This document shows positions 16,609 to 29,930 of a stretch of 64,000 bases of DNA, piece after piece. The translations under genes and the position numbers were made by a program. The notes below the pieces were generated by a model. That model did no database searches, was not told where the DNA came from, and was given only the letters and a program-made list of their open reading frames with translations. The stretch comes from Clostridium rhizosphaerae. Its GTDB lineage: Bacteria > Bacillota > Clostridia > Clostridiales > Clostridiaceae. The stretch spans positions 248,001-312,000 of the forward strand of contig NZ_JAESWC010000001.1 of NCBI RefSeq assembly GCF_016765585.1, in the 5' to 3' direction. The first letter of the stretch is position 1; each line of letters starts with the position of its first letter.

Positions 16609-16637
16609 ACACAATAAGATATTGTTAAGATTAATAT

Positions 16638-16675
16638 AAAAAAATAATCAGGATTGATTTCCTGATTATTTTTTT
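16638..16675. terminator. Bidirectional terminator
   Basis: AAATAATCAGGA and TCCTGATTATTT pair around TTGATT, with A and T runs on both sides. It ends the nucleoside operon on the plus strand and also forms the end of the SorC-type remnant on the minus strand. Confidence 0.85.
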
Positions 16676-17095
16676 ATATTGCCGCTTATATCAAAATAAT
16701 GTGTACATACCTCTCCAACTGCATTTTTGTTCTGAAAAATATAAGCTTCTGATTTTAATATGTAGTTCTTCTGAACAATGTTGGATTTAGCAGACATATC
16801 TCCGATACCAACTATTGCTATAGTGCAAGCCTTCTTAACTTCATTCACCAAGGAATCGCAAAGCTTCTTGTTTTCTAAGATAATAGGAGCGTACATAAAG
16901 CAAGGTTTTGCATTTAAAACTTGTGAGGAGCGTCCAACTATATAATCTAAATTTATATAGGATTCTTCCGCATTGAGTCCACCAACAAGCTGTATGACAG
17001 TAAGATTTTTCTATCAATAACTGGACTCTCACCAGTAAGTATGATCCTGCTTTGCTGTACGCACTCGCGATATCTTCTTTTCTAGTTAAATATAT
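16666..17095 (-). pseudogene. Decayed SorC-family sugar-responsive regulator fragment
   Basis: On the minus strand the frame at 16666-16990 gives LTVIQLVGGLNAEESYINL, then SSQVLNAKPCFMYAPIILENK, GIGDMSAKSNIVQ and AVGEVCTHYFDISG. This is the middle of the SorC effector domain. Upstream, RIILTGESPVIDRKI continues in a different frame, so there is at least one frameshift near 16995-17005. The N-terminal helix-turn-helix and the final ~60 residues of a ~315-residue SorC protein are absent. The fragment ends at the terminator hairpin. It was probably once a regulator of a sugar or nucleoside operon and is now non-functional. Confidence 0.75.
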
Positions 17096-17125: not shown

Positions 17126-18166
17126 TTAGTCAGCTTCTTTAAACTTTACAACATCAAGCATTGCTTTTATATTATCAAATTTAGTTCTTGGTCCGATGCC
17201 GCAGGCTGGCGATAATATATTTACTCCTGAATCTAGACAACTTAACGCCTGTACCTTTATACTTTCTTTAGTACCATTTTCAAGTGTAAAGGTACTTACA
17301 TTTCCCATGACAGCTTTATTATTTACATTTTCGCAAACCTCTCTTACACTTGTAATGGAATCAAAGCTTATGGCATCACTTCTCAGAGAGTTAAGCTCTT
17401 CATAAATACTCTTAAGCCTTCCGCATATATGAATTATTACTCCGGTTTCTGCATATTGCTTTAAAGCATCAGCAATTTTATTTAAATAAGGAACAGCAAA
17501 CTTTCTAAAGCTCACAGGACCTAATATTTCACCTGTGGCACTAGGATCAGAAATAGCAAGAACATTTGCTCCTGCCATAAGCTGAGCTTTTCCGAACTCA
17601 ATTAGATTTTCTGTTACAAATTCCATCAGTTTATGTGCTTCAGAAGGCTTCCTTATAATTTCCTTATAAAAATTTACCGGTTCCATAAGGGAAGCTGCAA
17701 GGCTTATCGGTCCAGTCAGATTAGCTACTATAGGAACTTCATTATTTTTTTCCTTAAGTATTTTAATAGCATCGATTACTGTTTTAACTCTTCCTTCATC
17801 AGTTTTTATTTTCTTTAGCTTTGTCCATTCACTTACTGAGTTTATTACATACTTTGTTACTCTAGGTTCATTTACTTTTGTACCTAGAAAAACTTCAGCA
17901 CCCATGGCTTCTGCTTCGACAGTCATGCAAAAGGGCACTCCAAAGTTTTCAAAGCCTCCGTTTTCACAAACTCCTGCAGAAAGCTCAGCCATTAGCCTTG
18001 CATCCGTATGTGCCTCCGGCCATTTGCAGCCTGTTATATCCATGATATCCTCGACAATCATATTCATCATTCCACTAGGACAAATACATGGTGGTCTGTC
18101 TACCTTCTCTCTTAAAAGAGTAAGTTTTAATCTTTCCTTAGGGGTCAACAATTTAGCCACCTTCAT
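17126..18166 (-). CDS. UroD/MtaA-type corrinoid-dependent methyltransferase
   Basis: A 346-residue protein of the uroporphyrinogen-decarboxylase fold family that includes MtaA, MtbA and CmuA. The zinc/thiol-activating triad is present as His246 and Cys248 (IIHICGR) and Cys322 (LSPACGIGPR). The segment GFENFGVPFCMTVEAEAMGA is shared with the shorter paralogue at 19924. Such enzymes move methyl groups between a corrinoid protein and a thiol or tetrahydrofolate, or load it from a methyl donor. It is the last gene of the nine-gene operon, 4 nt after the previous stop. ATG 18166 lacks a clear ribosome site; TTG 18148 after AAGGTGG is a plausible alternative start. Confidence 0.87.
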   Translation of the reverse strand: MKVAKLLTPKERLKLTLLREKVDRPPCICPSGMMNMIVEDIMDITGCKWPEAHTDARLMAELSAGVCENGGFENFGVPFCMTVEAEAMGAEVFLGTKVNEPRVTKYVINSVSEWTKLKKIKTDEGRVKTVIDAIKILKEKNNEVPIVANLTGPISLAASLMEPVNFYKEIIRKPSEAHKLMEFVTENLIEFGKAQLMAGANVLAISDPSATGEILGPVSFRKFAVPYLNKIADALKQYAETGVIIHICGRLKSIYEELNSLRSDAISFDSITSVREVCENVNNKAVMGNVSTFTLENGTKESIKVQALSCLDSGVNILSPACGIGPRTKFDNIKAMLDVVKFKEAD

Positions 18167-18170
18167 TCTT

Positions 18171-19250
18171 TTAGTTTTCTATCATTTTATGAAGTTTCTC
18201 TACATCTATCGGATAACCTATTTCTCTTACTGTATCCATCATAACGTGTATATTTTCAAGAGGAGTCTCAACAGGGAGACTGCAGCCTGACATAATTGTA
18301 TAGCCTTTAGGGTTGTCATATCCATCTATAACGCATTGTGTAACAGAATTTCGTACCTCCTTGAAGGTACCTGCATACATAACATTTGATGGATCTACAT
18401 TACCTAAAATCTTCATTTTATCTCCTATAGTTTCTTTGCAGGCTTTAAGGCTCACTACGTTATCCATGCTGAATCCTGAAACACCGATAGAAGCCATCTC
18501 ACCGATATCCGGCCATATCTTCTCAGTTTTTCCGCATATATGAAGTACTGTGGCCTTACCTTTTGATTTTATAAATTCTACAAGCCTTCTTAAGTAAGGT
18601 GCGCAGAATATCCTAAAGTGCTTTGGATTTATTATTGTGCAAGAGGCTAGAGGTTCTGATATAGTTGGAGTTAATCCTAATTCTATAGCTACCTTGGCAT
18701 AATCTATACATGTCTGAAGTGAAAGTTCGCACAGCTTGTGTACAGCTTCAGGATCTTTAAATAAAATCTTTGTCATCTTTTCTAGACCTACAAGAAAGAA
18801 GGCATTTGAAAATGGTCCTACTATTCCTGCTGAGCAGGGAACTTCCTGTCCTATTTCATCAATCAGATACTTCATCGCATCAATAAATACAGGAAGCCTG
18901 CCATCCTTATAAGGATTAGCTACCCTAAGTTTGTCTATATCTTTTACATCTTCTATTGCAGGCTTTAAAAGGTCTGCGGTATTATCCTCAGGTAAAATAA
19001 GCTCTGAGCCCATTGCTTCTGCCCAAACATATAAATCCGTAAATACTCTAACTCCGTCCATTCCATATCTTTTATAAGCGGAAATCTGGGCATCTGCTAT
19101 AGCCTTGCCACTAATATTGAAATCAGAAATTTTGCAGCCATGAATACGGGCTACCCCGTTTGCAATGTTAGGGTTACAGGGCAGCCTATCAATTGGCTGA
19201 CCCTTTCCCAAGGCAATAGCTCTTTCCATTGGAGTCATTTGATCCTTCAT
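18171..19250 (-). CDS. UroD/MtaA-type corrinoid-dependent methyltransferase
   Basis: A 359-residue paralogue with MTPMERAIALGKGQPIDRLPCNP at the start and the metal triad His237, Cys239 (VLHICGK) and Cys323 (IMSGCSLPVETP). It is most like the first gene of the operon (25366-26418) in architecture: GYTIMSGCSLPVETPLENIHVMMD here against GLYILSTGCDISPKAPFEYVQAMMD there. It directly follows the corrinoid protein (4 nt), with GGGGG overlapping that gene's stop, so it is probably that protein's methyltransferase partner. Whether it is the substrate-side or acceptor-side enzyme cannot be told from sequence. Confidence 0.9.
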   Translation of the reverse strand: MKDQMTPMERAIALGKGQPIDRLPCNPNIANGVARIHGCKISDFNISGKAIADAQISAYKRYGMDGVRVFTDLYVWAEAMGSELILPEDNTADLLKPAIEDVKDIDKLRVANPYKDGRLPVFIDAMKYLIDEIGQEVPCSAGIVGPFSNAFFLVGLEKMTKILFKDPEAVHKLCELSLQTCIDYAKVAIELGLTPTISEPLASCTIINPKHFRIFCAPYLRRLVEFIKSKGKATVLHICGKTEKIWPDIGEMASIGVSGFSMDNVVSLKACKETIGDKMKILGNVDPSNVMYAGTFKEVRNSVTQCVIDGYDNPKGYTIMSGCSLPVETPLENIHVMMDTVREIGYPIDVEKLHKMIEN

Positions 19251-19254
19251 TATA

Positions 19255-19908
19255 TTACGCCCCCTGAACTAGAGTTTTTGCACGTTTAGCAGCCTTTGAA
19301 GCATCTGTAGTATAAATATCTGCACCTATTTTATCAGCAAAGCTTTGGGATATAGGACCTCCGCCTATCATAACTTTTATCTTGTCTCTTAATTTTTCTT
19401 CTTCAAGTATCCTTATTACCTCTGCCATTCCATCCATAGTAGTTGTCATAAGGGTTGATAAGGCAATTATGTCTGCACCTATTTCCTTTGCTTTTTCTAC
19501 AAAAGCTGCAGGTGGTACATCTCTTCCTAAATCAACTACTTCAAAGCCCTCTGTTTCCATCATAATCTTAACAAGATTTTTCCCGATATCATGCGTATCT
19601 CCTTGAACTACTCCTATAACAACCTTATGTTTACCTTCAGTTTCGGACTTTTCAAGGTGCGGCTTTAAAACCTCGATACCTGAGTACATTGCATCTGAGC
19701 ACATTAAAAGCTCAGGAATGTAGTATTCGCCTTCTTCATAAAGTTGCCCGGCTCTATTCATTCCATCAGACAGCCCCTTTTCAATTCCCTCATAAGCGCT
19801 AATTTCTTTTTCTATGCACAACTTAGCTAGTTCAACGGTTTTTTCCTCATCCATATCCACTACTGAATCAGATAATTCCCTTAAAAGATTTTCCTTTACA
19901 TCACTCAT
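19255..19908 (-). CDS. Corrinoid (B12-binding) methyl-carrier protein
   Basis: A 217-residue protein of the MtaC/MtbC/MtmC type. An N-terminal four-helix cap (residues 1-85) precedes a Rossmann B12-binding domain with the base-off/His-on motif GDTHDIGKNLV (Asp104, His106, Gly109), ALSTLMTTTMD and MIGGGPISQSFADKIGAD. It carries the methyl group on cobalt between two methyltransferases. It is the only corrinoid protein in the operon although there are four UroD-type enzymes. GGGGAG lies before the ATG. Cobalt in such proteins is oxidised at times and needs the RACo-type activator encoded upstream. Confidence 0.95.
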   Translation of the reverse strand: MSDVKENLLRELSDSVVDMDEEKTVELAKLCIEKEISAYEGIEKGLSDGMNRAGQLYEEGEYYIPELLMCSDAMYSGIEVLKPHLEKSETEGKHKVVIGVVQGDTHDIGKNLVKIMMETEGFEVVDLGRDVPPAAFVEKAKEIGADIIALSTLMTTTMDGMAEVIRILEEEKLRDKIKVMIGGGPISQSFADKIGADIYTTDASKAAKRAKTLVQGA

Positions 19909-19923
19909 TTTTTATCTCCCCTT

Positions 19924-20799
19924 CTATATTAATTCTATTTTCCAAACAACAGGTTTTTTCATTTTTAAAGTTGTCCTTTTTAAGCAGTTATAGCCGATAA
20001 GTTTAACATCCTTTCTTAACTCGGTAATTAACTTTAAAGCATCACCATAGGTCATATCTTTATCTATCCCAATTGGAGTAGATTTTATAAATCCGGATTT
20101 GTTTAAAGAAGTGGAGGTAACTCCGCAAATATGCACAAATGCTTTTCCTAGCTTACTTTCTATTTGCTTTAACACCTCATAGCTGTACCTTCCGCTAAAA
20201 TCCTTGTACATCTTTGGCCCAAGTATATCAATGTTTCCAGCAGAATCTCCATAAGATATTATCTTTGCTCCTCTTTTCAAGCCTTCTTCTGCATATTGGA
20301 CTGTGCTTTTACAAATAACCTCCATAAAAGCTTCTACTGCTGCCCTGTCTTTCCTTACAGCCTTATAAAATAGTACCGGGTCAATTAAGGAAGACATTAT
20401 AGTAAAAGGTCCTTGAATATTTAATGCCACTTCTTCTCCTTCGCTGCTTAACTTTTCTACAGCTTTTAGCACTTCGCTAATTCTTCCTGTTGAAAAATCA
20501 ATTGGTTTAATATTTTTCAAATCCTCAATACTTTTATAAGCATATTCTCCAACTCTAGGTCCTATTTTTTCATCTCCAAGCTTTATATCTGCTCCCAAAG
20601 CCTCAGCTTCTACGGTAAGACAGAAGGGAACCCTTGAAATAGAATCCTTGTGGTGGTTTTTTAAAGTTTTTGCAAGTATTGAAATTTTATCAACTTTTGT
20701 ATGTGCTTCAGGAAACGTAATACCTGTTTGATTAGCAACACTCTCCGGTATTTCTTCAAACTTGTCTAATGTACATTTAAAATTAATCTGGTTTTCCAT
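19924..20799 (-). CDS. Short UroD-family methyltransferase paralogue
   Basis: A 291-residue member, about 55-65 residues shorter than its three neighbours. It lacks the usual N-terminal TPKERL segment and has a compact C-terminal part. His223 and Cys225 (FVHICGV) and a later cysteine, Cys272 (IGYNCLKRT), could form the metal site, but the gap between the cysteines is only 47 residues against 74-84 in the other three. It shares VPFCLTVEAEALGADIKLG with the 17126 enzyme. The ATG follows GGGGG, and the corrinoid gene is 15 nt downstream. It may be a methyltransferase of altered specificity or a scaffold; function not established. Confidence 0.8.
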   Translation of the reverse strand: MENQINFKCTLDKFEEIPESVANQTGITFPEAHTKVDKISILAKTLKNHHKDSISRVPFCLTVEAEALGADIKLGDEKIGPRVGEYAYKSIEDLKNIKPIDFSTGRISEVLKAVEKLSSEGEEVALNIQGPFTIMSSLIDPVLFYKAVRKDRAAVEAFMEVICKSTVQYAEEGLKRGAKIISYGDSAGNIDILGPKMYKDFSGRYSYEVLKQIESKLGKAFVHICGVTSTSLNKSGFIKSTPIGIDKDMTYGDALKLITELRKDVKLIGYNCLKRTTLKMKKPVVWKIELI

Positions 20800-20819
20800 T
20801 AATCTACCCCCGCAAATTT

Positions 20820-21659
20820 CTAAAAAGAAAACTTTAAAATATAAATAAGTTCTCCAATAATAATGCTGACTGTCTGCACAAGGAGCATTATTTTAAATGC
20901 TTTCTTCACAGATAACTCTTTAAAGATAACCAATATTCCAAAACCGGTATTAGCGCATAACCCTGCGATCAAAGGTCCAAGACCTACAGCGCCTTTAATA
21001 AAGCCTTCTGCCAGAACCACAGAGGATAAACAGCTTGGGATCATACCTATTAAGCTTGCATACACAGGCTGCAGATAGGAGTTCTTTCCTAACAGCTTAT
21101 AAAGACCTTCTTCCCCTATCTTGTCCATCCCAAGATTGATAAGAAATACTGTAATAATCAAGAATATAAAAATTTTCAGAGTAAATTTTATATTTCTGGT
21201 TATTATACCTTTTCCATCTTTACATTTGCTGCAATCGCAGGATATATCGTATAGCTTAAATCTATTTCTTTTTTCTTTTATAAAAGCATTAATTAAATAT
21301 CCAAAGATCATGCCTATTATTACTTTTAAAATTATAAGCTTAAGCATAAAAGGCAGCTTTTCCGGATGAGCTCCTATAATAATAAGTGCTTCATCTGAAC
21401 TGGATAAAAATATTGCTACAAGCATTCCTATGCTTATTAATCCGCCACTGTATAACTTAGCCATAGCCACAGGTATGCCGCATTGAGGTATCACACCAAG
21501 GATAGCTCCACCTATACAGTCGTATTTTGAAAGCTTTTCTATCAGGCGATTATCCTTATTTACCACATTCACCAGGTAATCTACAAGAATAAAGGCTATA
21601 AATAATATAGGAAGGGTTTTTGATACATCCTTTATACTGTCAATTAGTATATCTACCAC
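20820..21659 (-). CDS. Predicted metal-exporter-like permease (ArsP_2/10TM type)
   Basis: A 279-residue membrane protein with about eight spans. GAILGVIPQCGIPVAMAKLYSGG and its C-terminal mirror ASLIGMIPSCLSSVVLAEGF form the internally repeated motif of the putative 10TM heavy-metal exporter family. A cytoplasmic loop carries CDCSKCKDGKG, a possible metal site. It starts with GTG inside the CobW gene's end (7-bp overlap; GGAGGG eight bases before), so expression is coupled to that metallochaperone. Cobalt or another metal, or a methylated substrate, may be what it moves; unproven. Confidence 0.72.
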   Translation of the reverse strand: MVDILIDSIKDVSKTLPILFIAFILVDYLVNVVNKDNRLIEKLSKYDCIGGAILGVIPQCGIPVAMAKLYSGGLISIGMLVAIFLSSSDEALIIIGAHPEKLPFMLKLIILKVIIGMIFGYLINAFIKEKRNRFKLYDISCDCSKCKDGKGIITRNIKFTLKIFIFLIITVFLINLGMDKIGEEGLYKLLGKNSYLQPVYASLIGMIPSCLSSVVLAEGFIKGAVGLGPLIAGLCANTGFGILVIFKELSVKKAFKIMLLVQTVSIIIGELIYILKFSF

Positions 21660-22588
21660 TTAAAAAGCCCTCCAATCTTTGTCTGAAAAAGCTCTTTTAT
21701 CTTTTTATCCTCTAAGTTTTTTCCTATTATGCAAAGCTTGCCTGTAGAATCAAATTTGCTTTTATATATTTCAAAGTACCCGTTTGCATAACTGAATTCC
21801 AGTCCAAATCCTTTTCCCTTTAAAAATCCTTTTGCTCTTATAACCATGCCAAATTCGGATTCCTTCAGTCTGTTCAGTGCTTCAGCAAGAGATTCTTCAT
21901 TAAATTTTTTTGAGGTTTTAATGGCCAATGCATCAAACTGATTATCACTGCAGGGCTTATATTCTGTATAAAACAAGTTATCAAAATCTATATTTAAGTC
22001 TAAATCTAAGAGGGATTTTATTTCTTCCTGAGTCAGTTTACTCCAATTATCTGTTATTATTGGGGCCTTTAAATTTAGCTCTCTTAAAGATGCAATAATT
22101 TTATCTATTAGTTCTGAATCTGCCAGCTGACTTTTACTGATCATTAAAGTTCCGGCATTTATTATTTGATCTTCAAAAAACTCACCAAATACATCTCTCT
22201 GCTCCATATAGCTTATTCCGTCTATAACGGTAATAATTGAATTAATCTCACATATATTTTTGAATTGCTCAAGTTTTAAAACTTCTATTATTTCGCTTAA
22301 AATACTTATCCCTGTGGGTTCAATTATTACTCTTTCCGGTTTATACTCACAAAGCACCTTTTCAAATAAGGTTACAAAGTCTTTTTTCATGATACAGCAG
22401 ATACATCCACTGGTTATCTCGACAACATCAAAACCGTCTTTTTCAACTATATCTCCATCTATGCCTATATCTCCGAATTCATTTTCTATAAGCACAACTT
22501 TTTCATCCTTATAGGCAGTAAGAAGTTTCTTTATTAAAGTAGTTTTTCCTGCGCCTAAGAAGCCCGATACTATATCTACCTTTATCAT
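21653..22588 (-). CDS. CobW/COG0523-family metal-chaperone GTPase
   Basis: A 311-residue GTPase of the CobW/HypB/UreG family. The P-loop is GFLGAGKTTLIKKLL, the metal-binding motif is SGCICCIMKK (the canonical GCxCC) and the base-recognition motif appears as MISKSQLAD in place of NKxD. A C-terminal CobW_C domain is recognisable though weak. It probably delivers a metal such as cobalt or zinc to enzymes of this operon, since UroD-type methyltransferases need zinc and the carrier needs cobalamin. It overlaps the permease gene by 7 bp and follows the RACo-like gene by 31 nt. Confidence 0.87.
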   Translation of the reverse strand: MIKVDIVSGFLGAGKTTLIKKLLTAYKDEKVVLIENEFGDIGIDGDIVEKDGFDVVEITSGCICCIMKKDFVTLFEKVLCEYKPERVIIEPTGISILSEIIEVLKLEQFKNICEINSIITVIDGISYMEQRDVFGEFFEDQIINAGTLMISKSQLADSELIDKIIASLRELNLKAPIITDNWSKLTQEEIKSLLDLDLNIDFDNLFYTEYKPCSDNQFDALAIKTSKKFNEESLAEALNRLKESEFGMVIRAKGFLKGKGFGLEFSYANGYFEIYKSKFDSTGKLCIIGKNLEDKKIKELFQTKIGGLFKW

Positions 22589-22619
22589 ATTTTTCTCCCT
22601 TCAAAGAATCAGTACTTGA

Positions 22620-24164
22620 TTAAAAGCTTATTTCCTTTACAAAGTAATCCTGAAATTCCTGTTTTACAGAAAGCTCTACTACCTTAATATTTTCTTTGAT
22701 TTTACTCATTTCTCTAAGTTTTTGTTCATTAATAAGTGCAAGCCTTGCTCCTTCAACAGATGAGTTCCCTACGAAATTAATTTTCCCTTTGAAACCCTGA
22801 GGGATGAGTCCAATAGCCTTTATACTTTCAGAATCTAAATGATAGCCAAAGGCTCCTGCTACAACAGCTTCTTCTATAGACTCAATATCAATGTTTAATT
22901 CTTTTAAAAGCATAATAATTCCTGAAGCTATTGCTGCTTTTGCAAGCTGTATTTGTCTTATGTCATTTTGAGATATATAAATTTCATCGGTTATATAAAA
23001 CTTTTTATCTACAAGCCTGAAGGCTAATTTATCAGGAAGATTTTTATTAAATCTACCGCTTTTTAAAATTATATTTCTATTTATTAAACTTGCTGCAATA
23101 TCTATAAGACCACTTCCGCAAATACCCTTTGCCTCTTTATCTCCTATTGTTGTAAAGGCTATATTGTATTGTTCATCTATGTTAAAACTGTCAATTGCAC
23201 CGGCCTCGGCTCTTAAGCCGCAGGAGATATTCATGCCCTCAAGGGCAGGTCCCGCTGCTGTGGAAGAAGCAACCATCTCTTCATCCTTTATCACAACTAT
23301 TTCGCCATTTGTACCAATATCGATAAATAATGATGGTTTTATTTTGTTCTGAAAATCTACGGCCACTATTCCAGATAAAATATCAGAACCTACATAGGCT
23401 GAGGCAGAAGGAAGCAGCGTTATAGTTCCTTCGTTCCTTATATCAATCCCCAGTTCCTCAGCTTTAAAGTCCTTTTTATCTAAAAAAACAGCTTTATAGG
23501 GCGCCTTTGCAATAGTTTCAGGGGTTACCCCTAAAAACAAATGAAGCATTGTAGTGTTTGCCGAGATCACAACTTTATAGATATCTTTCAGGTTATAGTC
23601 TTTATGAGCAGCTTTTTTAAGCATATTGCTTATCTTGTCTCTTATACACTTGCTCAAGGTCTCCAAACCATTTTCTTCCTTTATGGCATAAGTTATTCTT
23701 GATAAAACATCTCCGCCATACTCAGTTTGCGGATTTAAATCGGATATTCTGTCCAAAACCCTGCCATTCTCTAAATCAACAAGATAAACAGAAATACCCG
23801 TCGTTCCTATATCTACAGCTGCCCCTAATGCCCCCTTTTCAGGACAGTCAGCTTTTACTTCAATTGAATAGCCTCTATTTATTGTTTTTAAGTTTTCTCC
23901 TGCACTGATAAGTTTAACCTCAACATCTCCTAAAATCTTAGCCACACATGCAAGCCTTGTATCAGGCTCCTTTGTATGTTTTTCTTCTTCCTCTGATTTT
24001 GAAGAAAGCTTTCCGTAAGCTTTAACCTTACACTTGCCGCATATACCTGTGCAGTTGCAGGGAGTTTCAGCTTTTAAACCGGCCATTCTAATGCAATCTA
24101 TAAGTCTTGTTCCCTCTACAGCTTCAACATTAATATTCTCATCTATAAACCTGACTTCTGCCAT
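22620..24164 (-). CDS. RACo-type reductive activator of corrinoid protein ([2Fe-2S] plus ASKHA domain)
   Basis: A 514-residue protein. The N-terminal ferredoxin domain has Cys36, Cys42, Cys45 and Cys73 (PCNCTGICGKCKV ... RLACVA) for a [2Fe-2S] cluster. It is followed by a linker and a large ASKHA-fold ATPase domain with GAAVDIGTTGISVYLVDLE, SLFIDIGTNGEIVVI and VAGAFGYHLD. Family members use ATP to push an electron onto Co(II) of corrinoid methyl carriers, restoring Co(I). The operon context with a corrinoid protein and methyltransferases fits exactly. AGGGAG lies before the ATG. Confidence 0.93.
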   Translation of the reverse strand: MAEVRFIDENINVEAVEGTRLIDCIRMAGLKAETPCNCTGICGKCKVKAYGKLSSKSEEEEKHTKEPDTRLACVAKILGDVEVKLISAGENLKTINRGYSIEVKADCPEKGALGAAVDIGTTGISVYLVDLENGRVLDRISDLNPQTEYGGDVLSRITYAIKEENGLETLSKCIRDKISNMLKKAAHKDYNLKDIYKVVISANTTMLHLFLGVTPETIAKAPYKAVFLDKKDFKAEELGIDIRNEGTITLLPSASAYVGSDILSGIVAVDFQNKIKPSLFIDIGTNGEIVVIKDEEMVASSTAAGPALEGMNISCGLRAEAGAIDSFNIDEQYNIAFTTIGDKEAKGICGSGLIDIAASLINRNIILKSGRFNKNLPDKLAFRLVDKKFYITDEIYISQNDIRQIQLAKAAIASGIIMLLKELNIDIESIEEAVVAGAFGYHLDSESIKAIGLIPQGFKGKINFVGNSSVEGARLALINEQKLREMSKIKENIKVVELSVKQEFQDYFVKEISF

Positions 24165-24192
24165 AAATTCACTCCCTCTGTCAGCCGTCTTT

Positions 24193-25341
24193 TTAAAGCA
24201 TCTCTATAAAGGCAGCGATTCTGGTATTTAATTGTCCAACATCTGTCTGTGAATAATCAGTTTCTATATTCATATATGGAATTTGTTTTTCCTCATTTAC
24301 AAATCTTCTAATCTTATAGGATTCAACAGCAAAGGTATGACAGGCTTGCAGTATGACATCTATAACTCCATCTACCTTGTAGTCATCTATAAGTTCAGAA
24401 AGAAGATTTATCCTGTTATCATTTGGACTCATGCAGGAACATCCTATATTTAAATATTTTTCTGCGATTGCATCTATAGGATTTTTATCTTCATCAACCA
24501 ACCTGCTAATTTCCTTTATACCTGAGCAATTTTCGTAGCAAACAACCACACCGCCGTTTTCTTCTATGGCTCTTATTACCTTTTTTGTAGCGTCTCCCAT
24601 AGGACAGCCTGTTATTAGTATTCTCTTAGCATCCTTAGAAACTTTTCTCTTTCCTTCTTCATATTCTCTTTTAGCTTTATCTACTAAATCCCTTAGGTCT
24701 TTTATTTCCGCTTCCTTATCCCACTTAAAGGATGCTCCGCTCAATACCTTGTACATTTCAAATCCTGTTATAGGCGGCGGACACATTTTACCTAATTCAT
24801 AAAATTCTTTTAGTGCCAGTCTTTCTCTATTTCGAAGCCTAATAGATTCCATAAGTTTTTCTTTAGTTATTTCTACATTGAATTCCTTCTCCAGCTTCTC
24901 TTTTAGACTAATTATTTCATTTCTCCAAAGTCTGTAGGCATCTTCTCCCTTATTTGTCTGAGGAAGCTGCATAACATGTACATTTTTTATTTCACCCAAA
25001 AATTCGTACATTTTCTTTTTTCCGTCACAAGTTGTTTCTCCAACAATCATATCTGAAAAATAAAAGTAAGGGCACTTATCTGTGATGGCAAAGCCGTAGC
25101 TGGACTTTATTAAAGGGCAAAGATTTCTAGGAAGGTACTGTTCTGCCTCTGAAATAGGCTCATCACTTTTTGCACAAAGAGAAACAGGTGCTGCACCTGA
25201 AGCATGTATAACCTCCCAAGGAGTAAAAGTACAAAAGGTGCCAACAACCTTTTTCCCATCATCCTTTAAATTTTTAATTGTTATAAATCCGTTCTTTCTT
25301 GATTCGCTGAAATCTTCAAATATCTCAGGTAAATTATTCAT
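24193..25341 (-). CDS. Double-cubane-type (2-hydroxyacyl-CoA dehydratase HgdB-like, YjiM family) iron-sulfur protein
   Basis: A 382-residue protein of the HgdB/YjiM family. Cysteines in LPRNLCPLIKSSYGFA, GETTCDGKKKMYEFLG and LQACHTFAVESYKI are placed as in double-cubane-cluster proteins, and the N-terminal TFCTFTPWEVIHASGAAPV is diagnostic of the family. Relatives reduce difficult substrates with electrons raised in potential by an ASKHA-fold ATPase. No separate HgdC-type activator is encoded here, but the RACo-like gene 28 nt downstream has an ASKHA domain. A role in methyl-acceptor activation or corrinoid reduction is an inference. Confidence 0.85.
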   Translation of the reverse strand: MNNLPEIFEDFSESRKNGFITIKNLKDDGKKVVGTFCTFTPWEVIHASGAAPVSLCAKSDEPISEAEQYLPRNLCPLIKSSYGFAITDKCPYFYFSDMIVGETTCDGKKKMYEFLGEIKNVHVMQLPQTNKGEDAYRLWRNEIISLKEKLEKEFNVEITKEKLMESIRLRNRERLALKEFYELGKMCPPPITGFEMYKVLSGASFKWDKEAEIKDLRDLVDKAKREYEEGKRKVSKDAKRILITGCPMGDATKKVIRAIEENGGVVVCYENCSGIKEISRLVDEDKNPIDAIAEKYLNIGCSCMSPNDNRINLLSELIDDYKVDGVIDVILQACHTFAVESYKIRRFVNEEKQIPYMNIETDYSQTDVGQLNTRIAAFIEML

Positions 25342-25365
25342 ATATAATACTCCCTTATATCTTAA

Positions 25366-26418
25366 TTAATTATATTCATACAGTCCGTAGCTTCTCGCTA
25401 CATCCATCATAGCCTGTACATATTCAAAAGGTGCTTTAGGTGATATATCACAGCCAGTTGATAAAATATATAGGCCCTTATAATCTCTCATAAGATCAAT
25501 ATATCGTTTACAAACCTCCTGGATTTTCTCTACAGGTCCATGCAGCATTTCATCTGTTGTGTCAACATTTCCAACAATAGCCGCTCTCCCTGCTACAACT
25601 TCCTTAACCACCTTCAAATCCACTTTATCAACACTTATAGTATCTGCACCTGTTTCAACCATAAGCTCTAAAATCTTTTCTGATTTTCCGCATATGTGAA
25701 GCGCAGCCCCACTATTAAAGCTATGAATATAGTCAACAAGCTCCTTAATATATGGAAAGGCAAATTGCTTAAACATTTTAGGACTTATTACGCTTGCAGA
25801 AGCTATCGGGTCTGCAATAGCTCCTATATCAGCTCCGTGCGCTACTATAGTTTTTATGTGTCTTTTTATATTATCTGTTGATTTTCTCAAAAGCTCATGA
25901 CAAAGCTCCGGATCTGCATACATATCTCTTGCAAAAGCTTCTGTACCTCTTAAAGTTGCAGCTGTAGTAACAGGTCCAGATACTGATATTGAAATAGGTA
26001 CTTCTTGGCCTATCTCCTCGTTTACTATTTTAAATGCCTTGTAAAAAACCCACAGGTTTCCATCCTTTTCAGGATCTATGTCCTTAACCTTGCTCAAGTC
26101 TTCTCTTGACTTAACTAATGGTTCAATGCAGTTGGCAGCATCATCTTCCGGATAATCAAGCTTAGCTCCCATGGCCTCTGCAAGTACTGAACAATTTGTA
26201 CTTAGACCTACTGAATCATACTTGAACCTTTTATAAGCAGCTATATGTGATTGAGCCATTACTTCAGGATCAAGCTGGAACTCTTTTATGGTTTTACCTA
26301 TTAAGTAAGCCGCACTTATTGCTACCATAGGCAGGCATATTATCCTATCCATAGGTTTGCCTTCTGAAAATGCCTTGGACCTCTCTCTAGGAGTTAGTAT
26401 ATCTTCTCTTATATCCAT
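25366..26418 (-). CDS. UroD/MtaA-type corrinoid-dependent methyltransferase, first gene of the operon
   Basis: A 350-residue paralogue beginning near TPRERSKAFSEGKPMDRIICLP. The zinc site is His241 and Cys243 (ALHICGK) and Cys323 (LSTGCDISPKAP). Conserved parts include AEAMGAKLDYPEDDAANC and ISVSGPVTTAATLRG. GAGGAA stands before the ATG. It leads the operon and is followed after 24 nt by the double-cubane protein. Together with the 18171 enzyme it forms one subgroup and the two other paralogues form another, which suggests separate donor-side and acceptor-side roles; this split is inferred from my reading of the sequences. Confidence 0.9.
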   Translation of the reverse strand: MDIREDILTPRERSKAFSEGKPMDRIICLPMVAISAAYLIGKTIKEFQLDPEVMAQSHIAAYKRFKYDSVGLSTNCSVLAEAMGAKLDYPEDDAANCIEPLVKSREDLSKVKDIDPEKDGNLWVFYKAFKIVNEEIGQEVPISISVSGPVTTAATLRGTEAFARDMYADPELCHELLRKSTDNIKRHIKTIVAHGADIGAIADPIASASVISPKMFKQFAFPYIKELVDYIHSFNSGAALHICGKSEKILELMVETGADTISVDKVDLKVVKEVVAGRAAIVGNVDTTDEMLHGPVEKIQEVCKRYIDLMRDYKGLYILSTGCDISPKAPFEYVQAMMDVARSYGLYEYN

Positions 26419-26502
26419 CTTTTTTCCTCGCTATATGCACAATTATTTATATGATTTTATTGTCCAACTAAATTGTAGAATGGCATGAAAGCTTGAGCAA
26501 CA

Positions 26503-26554
26503 ACTATTGATATTTTTAATACTTGGACATCTTACTATTTATATTTTTAGTATT
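26503..26554 (-). repeat. Two 21-bp direct repeats, candidate regulator sites upstream of the methyltransferase operon
   Basis: The segments 26503-26523 and 26534-26554 match at 18 of 21 positions (ACTATTGATATTTTTAATACT against ACTATTTATATTTTTAGTATT) and are spaced 31 bp apart, about three helical turns. They lie in the spacer between the divergent methyltransferase operon and the MFS gene; the second overlaps the -35 of the MFS promoter. A shared activator or repressor is a reasonable guess. Confidence 0.5.
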
Positions 26555-26581
26555 TACAAGCAAAATAGTGTATGGTAAAAT
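26553..26581 (+). promoter_or_regulatory. Promoter of the MFS leader transcript
   Basis: TTTACA (26553-26558) and TAAAAT (26576-26581) are 17 bases apart. The predicted start near 26588 coincides with the first base-paired strand of the structured leader. Confidence 0.6.
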
Positions 26582-26587
26582 ATAACA

Positions 26588-26785
26588 AAGTGAGTGTACC
26601 TAGTTTTATCAAGCGGTACAGGGGCTTATCCTACACGCAGAGTTAAACCCTGCGGAGTCACTAATTATAAGCATTACTGAAACTTAAATTATATGAAATT
26701 AAACATCAAAGTTAACTTTTTTTATTTCATATAATTCATAGCTAAAGTTTGTTTATAAGATGTGATTTCGCAGGGTTTTTTATTT
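26588..26785 (+). ncRNA. Structured 5' leader with terminator, unassigned riboregulator of the MFS gene
   Basis: AGTGA (26589-26593) pairs with TCACT (26658-26662) and closes a multi-helix domain: GTACC/GGTAC, AGG/CCT and CGCAG (26636-26640)/CTGCG (26650-26654). The strand AAACCCTGCG (26645-26654) can instead pair with CGCAGGGTTT (26769-26778), followed by a T run, across an AT-rich inner hairpin. That gives mutually exclusive terminator and antiterminator forms. I do not recognise a known riboswitch class. A GTG-initiated 18-codon frame (26591-26647) ends inside the switch strand, so ribosome-mediated attenuation is an alternative, though no good ribosome site precedes it. Confidence 0.6.
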
Positions 26786-26807
26786 TTATAAGAAAGAAGG
26801 TGCCACC

Positions 26808-27989
26808 ATGAGTATTCAAAAAAACATTAAACTTTACTACTTTTATTCAACCTTTGCTGAGCTTTTAATTTTAGGACCTGTACTTGTATTATTTCTAACT
26901 GCTAAAGGTTTATCCTTTACAGAAATAATGCTGCTCCAATCCATCTCATCAATATCAGTATTTTTCTTTGAGGTTCCAACAGGAGCGGCAGCAGATAAAT
27001 TAGGGAGAAAATACAGCATACTTATAGGTGCCTTTCTCTGGGCTGTAGGACTGCTTTTATATGTAGTTGGTAAAGGCTTTTTAGTTTTTGCTCTTTCAGA
27101 AATAACCTTCAGCCTTGGTTCGGCCTTCAAGTCAGGTGCTGACAGTGCTTTAATTTACGATTCATTAAAAATGCTTAACAGAGAAAAGGAATATCAAAAG
27201 GTTGAAGGCAAGGCTCGTTCCTACTCTTTATATGCTCAAGCTATAGGATCAGTGTTGTCAAGCTTCCTATATGAAAAGAATATAAATCTTCCTATGATTG
27301 TTTCAATTTTGTTTATGCTCATAACAATTGCTGTAACCTTTATGTTTAAAGAACCTGAGGTTGAGGGCAAGGAAGGAAAATACGGAATAAATTATCTTAA
27401 TCAAATAAAAGAAAGCGGAAAATATATTTTAAGTCATGATAAGCTTAAAGCTATTGTATTTTTCTCCATGATATTTTTCATTTTTTACAGAACAGGTTTC
27501 TGGTACTATCAGCCTTACATGGAGGGAGTTAATATACCAGTAAAATATTTCGGTGCCATTTTCTTTATTTTTAATATTACTGCTGCCTTTATTTCCAAGA
27601 GAAGCTCCTATATTATGGAGAAGACAAAACCTAAGACATTGACTTTTATGTCTTTTCTAATGATAGTTTCCTTTTTAATGCTTGGTACTATCAGGGTTTG
27701 GCCTGGAGTTTTTGCAATACTTCTTCAGCAGGTTTCAAGAGGAATTTACAGACCTGTTACAACAAAATATATGAACAAGCATATTCCTTCTGATAAGCGT
27801 GCTACAATTTTATCCTTCCAGAGTCTTGCTACAAACTTAGCTGTTGCAGTAGCTTTTCCATTGATGGGTATTTTGAAAGACAATAGTGATATATTTACTA
27901 CCCATTTAATCCTTACTGCAGCAATGCTAATATTGACATTAATAAGCATAAAGTATATGAATGGAAAACTTGGAGTGAAAAAAAGCTGA
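26808..27989 (+). CDS. MFS transporter
   Basis: A 393-residue protein with twelve predicted spans. The MFS loop 2-3 motif is EVPTGAAADKLGRKYSILIG, and SLGSAFKSGADSALIYDSL is typical of clostridial MFS proteins of the multidrug-like type. Loop 6-7 carries KEPEVEGKEGKYG. AAGAAGGTG precedes the ATG. The leader with a switchable terminator suggests induction by a small molecule or by ribosome stalling, as for some antibiotic exporters. Substrate unknown. It is divergent from the methyltransferase operon; co-regulation is possible. Confidence 0.85.
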   Translation: MSIQKNIKLYYFYSTFAELLILGPVLVLFLTAKGLSFTEIMLLQSISSISVFFFEVPTGAAADKLGRKYSILIGAFLWAVGLLLYVVGKGFLVFALSEITFSLGSAFKSGADSALIYDSLKMLNREKEYQKVEGKARSYSLYAQAIGSVLSSFLYEKNINLPMIVSILFMLITIAVTFMFKEPEVEGKEGKYGINYLNQIKESGKYILSHDKLKAIVFFSMIFFIFYRTGFWYYQPYMEGVNIPVKYFGAIFFIFNITAAFISKRSSYIMEKTKPKTLTFMSFLMIVSFLMLGTIRVWPGVFAILLQQVSRGIYRPVTTKYMNKHIPSDKRATILSFQSLATNLAVAVAFPLMGILKDNSDIFTTHLILTAAMLILTLISIKYMNGKLGVKKS

Positions 27990-28013: not shown

Positions 28014-28093
28014 GCTAGTGTATCTAATTACCATTACTTTGGCCCTATTTTTAGTATATAATGTAATATAGTAATGTAATTTGTAAAAACTTA

Positions 28094-28190
28094 ATATAAG
28101 GGCAAACCTATTCGAAAGTTAGGGACGCAAAACTACGGGTCTAAAGTTCATACAATGACAGCCGGGTTGCCGTGTATTGGACAACACGTT
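28094..28190 (+). ncRNA. Cyclic di-GMP-I (GEMM-I) riboswitch
   Basis: The aptamer core is recognisable: AGGGCAAACC, the CGAAA tetraloop, GGGACGCAAA, ACGGGTCTAAA and finally GCCGGGTTGCC. GGGCAA pairs with TTGCC to close P1. These are the conserved parts of GEMM-I, including the GNRA tetraloop and the receptor-side GCAAA. It lies upstream of a gene for a c-di-GMP synthesis/degradation protein, with a terminator hairpin at 28204 in between, so c-di-GMP probably controls transcription of its own turnover enzyme. Whether binding turns expression on or off cannot be settled by eye. Confidence 0.92.
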
Positions 28191-28337: not shown

Positions 28338-29930
28338 ATGAACATAAAGACATTTATTAAACATACACCTAAAAAAATATATAATTACGTTTTAACAAAC
28401 CCGTCTAAAACGATATTCGATTTTATTATATTATCTACCGGAGTTGGTTTTATAGCATGCGGGTGGAATTCTCCCGCGCTTTTGATATATTCTGCTATTA
28501 TCACAGGATTACTAATCTTTGCAAATTACTGGGAAGGACATGTCTTATATAGATATATCTTTTCCTTAGCTGCAATAGGCCTATTCTATACAATAATACA
28601 GTTTCATCCTTTAAAATTGGTATACCTTCAAAGCCTAGCATTTTATATTCCATTGATAACTGCATACTTACTGCCTGATGTAATATCTACAAATATAGTG
28701 GGAGTCATACTTGCAGAATTGTTTTCTACATACTTTGGAAAAGCTGATTCTAATATTGTTCTGACTGATATTATTGGTATTATTTATGCATCAATAGTCT
28801 TATCAATAAGCTCTTATTTGTTTAGAAAATTAAATTCCGAAAAAAATAAATATCTTAAGGCAAGCATAACCGATTCACTCACTGGACTATATACCTTAAA
28901 ATACTTTTTAGAAACTGGTCAAAAAATATTAGATAGAAATCATGAAACGGCTGTACTTTTAATTGATTTGGATCATTTTAAACAAATAAATGATACCTAT
29001 GGCCACTTAATTGGAAATAGGGTTCTTATAGATCTTTCAAACTTACTAAAGAAAGAGCTGATGAATACTAATTGTATCATTGCCAGATTAGGAGGAGATG
29101 AATTTGTAGTTTTCATACAGGATGTTTCGAGCATTCAAGTTGAGAATATAATTGATCAGTTGTATCTAAGCTCTAAAAACAAAGTTTGTTCTATAGATCC
29201 TGCTCTTCCACCCTTAAGAATATCTTTTACAATAGGTGCAGCATATTCAAGTGATCATAAAAAATTAAATCTTCAGGAACTTTTAAATCAAGCGGACAGC
29301 AATATGTATCTCAATAAATTCGGAGAATACAAATTAGCTAACAAAGGCTCAATAGGTAATATAAAACAAAGTTCCAGGTTCACACAACTTTTAAAAACTC
29401 TAAAAGAGAAGGAAGCCTATACTTATGTTCACTCAAAATATGTTGCTCAATATTCTGCAGACCTTGCTATTGCTTTAGGCTTTACAGAAGAAAAAGTTAA
29501 AGATATATACATCTCGGGATTAATACACGATATTGGTAAGCTGTTTATACCCAATGAGATATTACGAAAGCCAGAAAAGCTAACCTTTGAAGAGTACTTA
29601 ATAATAAAAGGTCATGTAAATGATGGAATAAATATAGTAAATGATATGGAGCTCTCTGAAGTTATCTTGAGCGGTATCAAATATCATCACGAAAAATTCG
29701 ACGGCACCGGGTATCCTAATAAAATTAATGGAAATGATACTCCCATTGAAGGACGGATTATACAAATTGCAGATGCCTTCTCTGCCATGACAATTAAAAG
29801 AATATATAGAGAAAGTTTATCTTTAGAGGAGGCTCTGCTTGAACTTAAAAAGAATAGCGGCTCACAGTTTGATCCAAGCCTTGTAAGAGTGTTTACCAGC
29901 TTGTTTAAAGATAAAAAATCTGTAATATAG
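28338..29930 (+). CDS. Membrane-bound GGDEF plus HD-GYP protein (c-di-GMP synthesis and breakdown)
   Basis: A 530-residue protein. Five or six N-terminal membrane spans (residues 20-170) are followed by a GGDEF domain (about 180-335) with intact RLGGDEFVVF and a LIDLDHFKQINDTYGH metal-binding segment. The HD-GYP phosphodiesterase domain (about 350-525) has LIHDIGKLFIPNEIL and HHEKFDGTGYPNK. No RxxD inhibitory site precedes GGDEF. Both active sites look intact. The GTGAGGA ribosome site lies close to the ATG. It is preceded by a c-di-GMP riboswitch, giving a feedback loop, and followed after 15 nt by a histidine kinase gene. Confidence 0.93.
   Translation: MNIKTFIKHTPKKIYNYVLTNPSKTIFDFIILSTGVGFIACGWNSPALLIYSAIITGLLIFANYWEGHVLYRYIFSLAAIGLFYTIIQFHPLKLVYLQSLAFYIPLITAYLLPDVISTNIVGVILAELFSTYFGKADSNIVLTDIIGIIYASIVLSISSYLFRKLNSEKNKYLKASITDSLTGLYTLKYFLETGQKILDRNHETAVLLIDLDHFKQINDTYGHLIGNRVLIDLSNLLKKELMNTNCIIARLGGDEFVVFIQDVSSIQVENIIDQLYLSSKNKVCSIDPALPPLRISFTIGAAYSSDHKKLNLQELLNQADSNMYLNKFGEYKLANKGSIGNIKQSSRFTQLLKTLKEKEAYTYVHSKYVAQYSADLAIALGFTEEKVKDIYISGLIHDIGKLFIPNEILRKPEKLTFEEYLIIKGHVNDGINIVNDMELSEVILSGIKYHHEKFDGTGYPNKINGNDTPIEGRIIQIADAFSAMTIKRIYRESLSLEEALLELKKNSGSQFDPSLVRVFTSLFKDKKSVI

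Follow-up and report, generated by a model that had tools for sequence, protein, structure and literature searches.

Type 1 mlp gene clusters and the C. rhizosphaerae operon

Type 1 mlp gene clusters (MGCs) were defined by Kountz and Balskus in a 2023 preprint as genes running in one direction, with no divergent gene within and at most 2 kb apart, that encode Mlp2 and Mlp3 orthologues and lack any homologue of tetrahydrofolate methylase within 20 kb (PMC10418091). The zinc ligands of MGC proteins are His-Cys-Cys, a set that goes with S- and Se-methyl transfer, a carboxylate ligand being found otherwise; several Mlp1 proteins depart from the set, and the Mlps are separate from OdmB and VdmB in the published tree (PMC10418091). 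According to the same preprint, Mlp2 of Clostridium ljungdahlii (ClMlp2) transfers a methyl group in vitro from methylcobalamin to selenide, Methanococcus voltae has two Mlp2 proteins plus Mlp1 and Mlp3, and the machinery for selenocysteine (Sec) is present in 87% of MGC species (PMC10418091). By the account given there, M. voltae that has lost sdmC can no longer use dimethylselenide, and a further study reports that a sdm-like operon of M. maripaludis is up by 5.6–7.8 log2-fold without selenium (PMC11097638). The MGC family probably strips methyl groups off selenium or sulfur compounds via a vitamin-B12 carrier protein. Here we analysed a nine-gene operon at positions 17126–26418 of a 64,000-nucleotide stretch of Clostridium rhizosphaerae contig NZ_JAESWC010000001.1 (the window, to which all coordinates refer unless a locus is given) and compared it with these clusters. 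Judged by its sequence, this operon belongs to the type 1 MGCs and carries unusual extra genes.

The operon consists of nine open reading frames (ORFs) on the minus strand, separated, from position 17126 upwards, by 4, 4, 15, 20, -7 (an overlap), 31, 28 and 24 nt. The four UroD proteins are labelled U1 to U4 and the corrinoid protein Corr. In order of transcription, the features are:

25366–26418, minus strand: U1, lead gene, UroD-fold methyltransferase of Mlp2 type, distinct subclade (PF01208, 261.5 bits; HICG and C-terminal TGCD motif)
24193–25341, minus strand: double-cubane-cluster reductase, DCCP (NF040772, 562.2 bits, cut-off 350)
22620–24164, minus strand: RACo/Ram-type corrinoid activase with N-terminal 2Fe-2S domain (Fer2, Raco_middle, RACo_C_ter)
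21653–22588, minus strand: CobW-type GTPase, probable metallochaperone (PF02492, 133.9 bits; CobW_C, 30.4 bits)
20820–21659, minus strand: permease of the ArsP_2/'arsenic efflux' family, MGC-linked subtype (NF037962, 183.4, cut-off 100; putative function taken from the family name)
19924–20799, minus strand: U3, Mlp1, short UroD-fold protein (PF01208, 122.9 bits)
19255–19908, minus strand: Corr, corrinoid methyl carrier protein (TIGR02370, 216.7 against 215.3)
18171–19250, minus strand: U2, UroD methyltransferase of Mlp2 type (PF01208, 275 bits)
17126–18166, minus strand: U4, Mlp3, MtaA-like UroD methyltransferase (PF01208, 305.7; NF004889, 458.7 against 244)
16633–16680, minus strand: terminator-like hairpin followed by a T-run, 3' of the operon (92-nt segment, -26.2 kcal/mol in a single fold without shuffle control)

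The ORF positions agree with the first-pass annotation, which had described nine minus-strand genes with gaps of 31 nt or less, and Pfam/NCBIfam profiles matched the corrinoid protein, RACo-type activator, double-cubane protein, CobW GTPase and permease that it had named. The spacing makes cotranscription of the nine genes likely. By eye, a G-rich Shine-Dalgarno-like stretch precedes eight of the nine ORFs, the exception being 17126–18166. No other ars family was matched by any of the nine genes in the profile search, and no MttB-, MtgB- or MtaB-type family in a search confined to these genes. The activase (514 aa) aligns in two pieces with the counterparts of several relatives, so that those relatives probably carry additional residues separating the Fe-S domain from the ATPase part.

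All nine genes run in one direction at the distances given above, and the only pterin-binding (PF00809) match of the genome lies on contig C12, the operon itself being on C1. Mlp2 and Mlp3 are both encoded according to blastp, trees and gene order, with the reference names resting on gene order. Sequence and alignment place His-Cys-Cys ligands in U1, U2 and U4. The first-pass annotation had credited all four UroD proteins with an HxC...C site; this holds for these three, and U3 has the HxC motif without the usual C-terminal Cys. Transfer of methyl groups from or to selenide and sulfide is a predicted activity of the operon enzymes. The gene set has precedents: it fits the type 1 MGC, and the combination of Mlp1, two Mlp2 and Mlp3 recurs in loci L110 and L173. 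None of the four proteins reaches the cut-off of 400 bits of the MtaA equivalog NF040654 (U1 173.5, U3 111.1, U2 167.8, U4 261). With TIGR01463 (MtaA/CmuA family, cut-off 235.4) the scores were 241.2 for U4, 225.6 for U1, 218.9 for U2 and 94.6 for U3.

Assignment of the four UroD proteins

The genome of C. ljungdahlii, reached through locus L105, contains 14 UroD matches. Its locus L170 has the order Mlp1-Mlp2-Corr-Mlp3-RACo, identical to the published order of RS09360, 09365, 09370, 09375 and 09380, and the second cluster (L105) is arranged differently. The best C. ljungdahlii blastp match of U3 is ClMlp1 (37% identity) and that of U4 is ClMlp3 (52%), with M. mazei MtaA at 36% to U4. U2 is 74% identical to another Mlp2-like protein of C. 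ljungdahlii (L171), and U1 shares 31–39% identity with the Mlp2-like proteins of that genome. UroD matches in plasmid records were distant only, at 33.6% identity or less.

An IQ-TREE tree of 54 rows placed Mlp1, U3 and ClMlp1 in one group (support 100/100), as it did the Mlp2 rows including U1 (100/100). U2 also lies among these Mlp2 rows, and U1 belongs to a subclade of five members within them (100/100). In a FastTree tree of 245 rows, U4 and ClMlp3 fall within one clade of 30 members (support 0.976). Mlp1 is present at 23 of the 30 loci of this clade vs 7/56 loci of the other Mlp3-like rows, counts that include some genomes twice. Two Acetivibrio Mlp3-like rows lie among the other 56, outside the U4-ClMlp3 clade; H. 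thermocellum is presumably a relative of Acetivibrio. The selenium-free example of the defining paper is H. thermocellum (PMC10418091). A partial M. mazei MtaA taken from the PDB attaches beside the Mlp2 rows, unlike in the published tree, a position to which we attach no weight, as it concerns one partial row and midpoint rooting. Thirteen UroD-like ORFs outside 240–420 aa, including a fused frame at L179, were left out of the trees, which were built without OdmB, VdmB and CmuA. MetE, MetH and other rows that ranked lower than the UroD family in the fold search were read as sharing the barrel fold only.

Mlp1 and its zinc site

U3 has 291 aa with HxC at 223/225; it has no C-terminal Cys, the only later candidate being Cys272. 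Truncation was considered and rejected: all 30 relatives among ORFs passing the 240–420 aa filter are equally short (278–308 aa), the C-terminal Cys motif is missing from all 30 Mlp1-clade members, and in the alignment their C-termini coincide with that of U3. Since the relatives share both length and end point, the short form is a family trait. The motif was scored as a simple pattern, which finds it in 30/30 proteins of the U4 clade, 56/56 other Mlp3-like proteins and 48/99 Mlp2 proteins and is loose for the latter. Mlp1 keeps three invariant cysteines while lacking the usual C-terminal zinc ligand.

Accessory genes across related clusters

We examined 113 loci picked by matches to U1, U3 or the corrinoid protein, so the rates given here are not population rates. 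A content test (Corr, RACo and two or more UroD genes) was passed by 68 loci, or 63 after removal of near-identical ones; 45 failed, some because contigs or flanks end there. Among the 63 clusters, Mlp1 occurs in 25 (once as a fusion), CobW in 12, the permease in four and a double-cubane gene within the cluster in six. At least four UroD genes are found in three; L108 is a further case, its fourth gene being visible only in the longer view L173.

CobW lies upstream of nine of the 27 distinct Mlp1 genes and does not adjoin the other 18. It is directly upstream of Mlp1 in L038, L039 and L173, and as a remnant in the C. ljungdahlii cluster (L170:9601-9978, minus strand); the contig-end-cut locus L178 has CobW upstream too. 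A selenocysteine in this C. ljungdahlii CobW was considered, and reading the frames with TGA codons flagged yielded no more than a decayed fragment. At L179:7969-9756 (plus strand), CobW and Mlp1 are fused in a single frame of 595 aa. The association of CobW with Mlp1 (8/25 clusters vs 4/38 without Mlp1; Fisher p 0.0496) is weak and includes related genomes. For the double-cubane gene the corresponding numbers are 6/25 vs 0/38 (p 0.0026). This statistic was set aside: at five loci that failed the content test (L069, L071, L073, L074 and L075) a double-cubane gene adjoins Corr with no intact Mlp1 present, and that of L064 is divergent.

The permease stands between CobW and Mlp1 in the C. rhizosphaerae operon, L035, L036 and L174; in these and in the contig-end locus L192 it is found with CobW and U1. 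The fifth U1 locus of the trees, L037, has no permease and appears decayed. Among the 391 genomes of the class, 71 have a member of the permease family at 1e-15, yet the subtype profile scores near 500 bits only in the C. rhizosphaerae genome (G000) and G343, followed by 214; in G272 a fragment at a contig end is 56% identical over 135 residues. Cysteines in PQC60G and PSC210, and Cys143 and Cys146, are conserved family-wide. Cys141 occurs in 4/4 members of the MGC subtype and is not among the commonest letters in 28 other members. A Fur-like ORF is present in the fetched flanks of six of these 28 and not in those of 22, which weakly suggests a role of the permease with metal ions over arsenic.

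Corr and U2 are 75–79% identical to their counterparts of the L062/L063/L071 type, and U1, CobW and the permease are matched at 57–66% by the L035/L036/L174 type, so that the operon looks like a mosaic of the two. The words CobW, GTPase, permease and arsenic do not occur in the main text of PMC10418091 (figures and supplements being outside this scope), and we found no publication linking CobW with selenium and UroD, nor corrinoid with dimethyl selenide since 2023. Provisionally, the U1-CobW-permease accessory set and the CobW-Mlp1 fusion are new relative to the main text of the defining paper.

Both are genetic leads to the role of Mlp1 and the accessory genes. A tentative proposal, which we hold to be possible but doubtful, is that U1-type Mlp2, CobW and permease mark a hitherto undescribed subtype of MGC that uses a donor of its own. 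Mlp1, there and in MGCs generally, would not act as another zinc methyltransferase of the common type. It would be a UroD-fold protein coupled to CobW, its site rearranged to Cys9/Cys225/Cys272, and would handle freed selenide, another thiophilic product or a metal, whichever of these the permease then moves.

Selenium, folate and methionine genes of the host genome

The genome holding the operon (G000) comprises 4.85 Mb and is 96.85% complete. Its four PF01208 matches are all in the operon, and its one PF02607 match is the operon's Corr. The sole pterin-binding gene (L061:1453-2259) sits between ORFs that by eye look FolE- and FolB/FolK-like, and its product is most likely FolP. With one PF02607 carrier and only a FolP-like pterin protein, we concluded that, within the limits of these families, one carrier serves the four UroD proteins and no known folate methyltransferase takes the methyl group. 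This bears out the earlier suggestion that UroD subgroups work through a single carrier in an operon for corrinoid methyl transfer. It also makes the genome well suited to the question of where the methyl groups handled by MGCs end up.

MetE (PF01717) had no match in the genome and MetH-like proteins gave nothing above corrinoid-protein scores (best E 6e-40); thus no methionine synthase of the two families searched was found. SelD, with an in-frame TGA, scored 401.6 bits, an adjoining ORF resembles SelA by eye, and a tRNA-Sec was detected at 65.5 bits (gathering score 47).

Proposed methyl transfer and alternative substrates

The first-pass annotation had listed O-, N-, S- or halo-methyl transfer with the substrate unknown. 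The list can be narrowed, as published MGC data favour methyl-selenium or methyl-sulfur. Taken together, the His-Cys-Cys sites, the MGC papers and the presence of SelD and tRNA-Sec make methyl-selenium the most likely donor class, followed by methyl-sulfur. We therefore consider it probable, with a fair measure of doubt, that this type 1 MGC moves methyl groups from methylated selenium (possibly also sulfur) compounds to the corrinoid protein and then to a thiol or sulfide acceptor. The direction, substrates, methyl acceptor and accessory roles in C. rhizosphaerae are inferred. Both Mlp2-type enzymes, U1 and U2, would demethylate donors such as methylselenol, dimethylselenide or relatives, and the selenide freed would go to SelD. 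RACo would hold the corrinoid cobalt as Co(I), with the double-cubane protein providing low-potential reduction, and the MtaA-like Mlp3 (U4) would use a thiol as methyl acceptor. An accessory part that handles metals or chalcogens may be made up of Mlp1, CobW and the permease.

Several points weigh against selenium-type methyl transfer or against the assignments on which it is built. The names ClMlp1-3 were assigned by matching gene order to published locus tags and not by annotation. Identity to ClMlp2 is low (34% for U2, 31% for U1). In the IQ-TREE tree, the Mlp2 rows without U1 receive only 36/5 and U4 with ClMlp3 81/47, and the Mlp3-type rows need two changes and do not form one group. The selenide kinetics of ClMlp2 are slow (0.778 per min), and the key reference is a preprint (PMC10418091). 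A permease of a metal or metalloid type is not obviously needed for selenium salvage.

Use of methyl-sulfur rather than selenium, in methionine or methylthio salvage as proposed for the approximately 10% of MGC carriers without selenium traits, is unlikely but deserves consideration. The non-selenium type is marked by MarHDK genes. His-Cys-Cys sites suit S as well as Se, ClMlp2 may act weakly on sulfide, 4.3-fold slower (PMC10418091), and such salvage would be useful to a genome with no MetE match and only a FolP-like pterin protein. However, the genome has SelD and tRNA-Sec, and the Mlp3 proteins of selenium-deficient organisms are reported to form a single clade (PMC10418091). In the FastTree tree, where that clade was not located, U4 joins ClMlp3 and not the two Acetivibrio rows.

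Detoxification of methylated metalloids such as methylarsenite, with U1 as demethylating Mlp2 and the ArsP_2-family permease exporting the product, appears improbable. In its favour are the restriction of the permease subtype, within the loci examined, to the company of U1 and CobW, and the conserved permease cysteines, both family-wide and, as Cys141, found in the subtype. ArsP proper is reported to export organoarsenicals (PMC7176098), and a methanogen to demethylate dimethylarsenite (PMC10579292); in the latter study, strains isolated from Clostridium and Tissierella showed no demethylation of DMAs. 'Arsenic efflux' is a family name with no assay of the C. rhizosphaerae permease behind it, the Fur-like neighbours described above weakly suggest metal ions, and no other ars family was matched by the nine genes.

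Given a genome without recognizable MetE or MetH, the operon might be there to make methionine, with Mlp3 replacing methionine synthase; we regard this as very improbable. MetH-like matches at or below 1e-100 were missing from 17 of the 38 MGC-side entries and from 7 of the 18 controls (56 genomes). Of these MetH-negative genomes, 16 on the MGC side and the 7 controls were also searched for MetE (23 genomes), which had no match in 15 of the 16, the match in the other being a 133-aa fragment, or in 6 of the 7. As controls we used 18 relatives that had no U1 match at 1e-60; G137 and G569, whose coordinates coincide, are the same genome entered twice, L065 was left out, and several MGC-side loci failed the content test. 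Lack of both enzymes is not tied to MGCs, and with no contrast between the two sides this explanation was rejected.

CmuA is a UroD-type donor enzyme, and it is named among the plasmid matches with 23% identity to U1. Classical O-, N- or halo-demethylation, for which UroD-type donor enzymes such as OdmB and VdmB also exist (PMC10418091), is nevertheless hardly credible, since the nearest named relatives of the operon proteins are the ClMlps and MtaA (with OdmB, VdmB and CmuA outside the trees), the ligands are His-Cys-Cys instead of including a carboxylate, and there is no folate acceptor enzyme of a known family except the FolP-like protein.

Neighbouring features

A decayed C-terminal remnant at 16668–16990 (minus strand), which we take to resemble a SorC-type sugar-binding regulator, lies between the operon and the terminator-like hairpin. 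On the other side, the leader (26420–26807, plus strand) of a divergent major facilitator superfamily exporter gene (26808–27989) folds with -90.7 kcal/mol in a single fold without shuffle control and has a terminator-like stem and T-run immediately ahead of the start codon. The leader is a possible attenuator; Rfam gave matches only far below gathering scores for this region. Further downstream, a c-di-GMP-I riboswitch (28091–28174, plus strand, 73.1 bits) precedes an ORF at 28338–29930 that presumably carries GGDEF- and HD-GYP-like motifs.

Comparison with known systems

MtaA, the methylcobalamin:CoM methyltransferase (PDB 4ay7), shares the UroD fold, the HxC...C pattern and 36% identity with U4, which stays below the equivalog cut-off (261 vs 400 bits) and belongs to a bacterial host in which CoM is not expected. 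SdmABC of Methanococcus voltae and M. maripaludis likewise combines a corrinoid protein with UroD-type methyltransferases, comprising two Mlp2, Mlp1 and Mlp3 (PMC10418091); it is archaeal, and we liken it by its published description, not by sequence. The Hathewaya massiliensis MGC (L108; L173 is a longer view of the same contig) has Corr, two Mlp2, Mlp3, RACo, CobW, Mlp1 and double-cubane genes in common with the C. rhizosphaerae operon, but neither the permease nor a U1-type Mlp2. Three clusters from Clostridia (L035, L036 and L174) share seven of the nine gene types, namely Corr, U1-type Mlp2, Mlp3-like protein, RACo, CobW, permease and Mlp1, without a double-cubane gene or second Mlp2; Corr is 59–61% and the Mlp3-like protein 39–42% identical. 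The type 1 MGC of C. ljungdahlii (L170) has Mlp1, Mlp2, Corr, Mlp3 and RACo on one strand with the CobW remnant directly upstream of Mlp1; identities to the C. rhizosphaerae proteins are 35–56%, and the extra genes of C. rhizosphaerae are another one of Mlp2 type (U1), CobW in intact form, the permease and the double-cubane protein.

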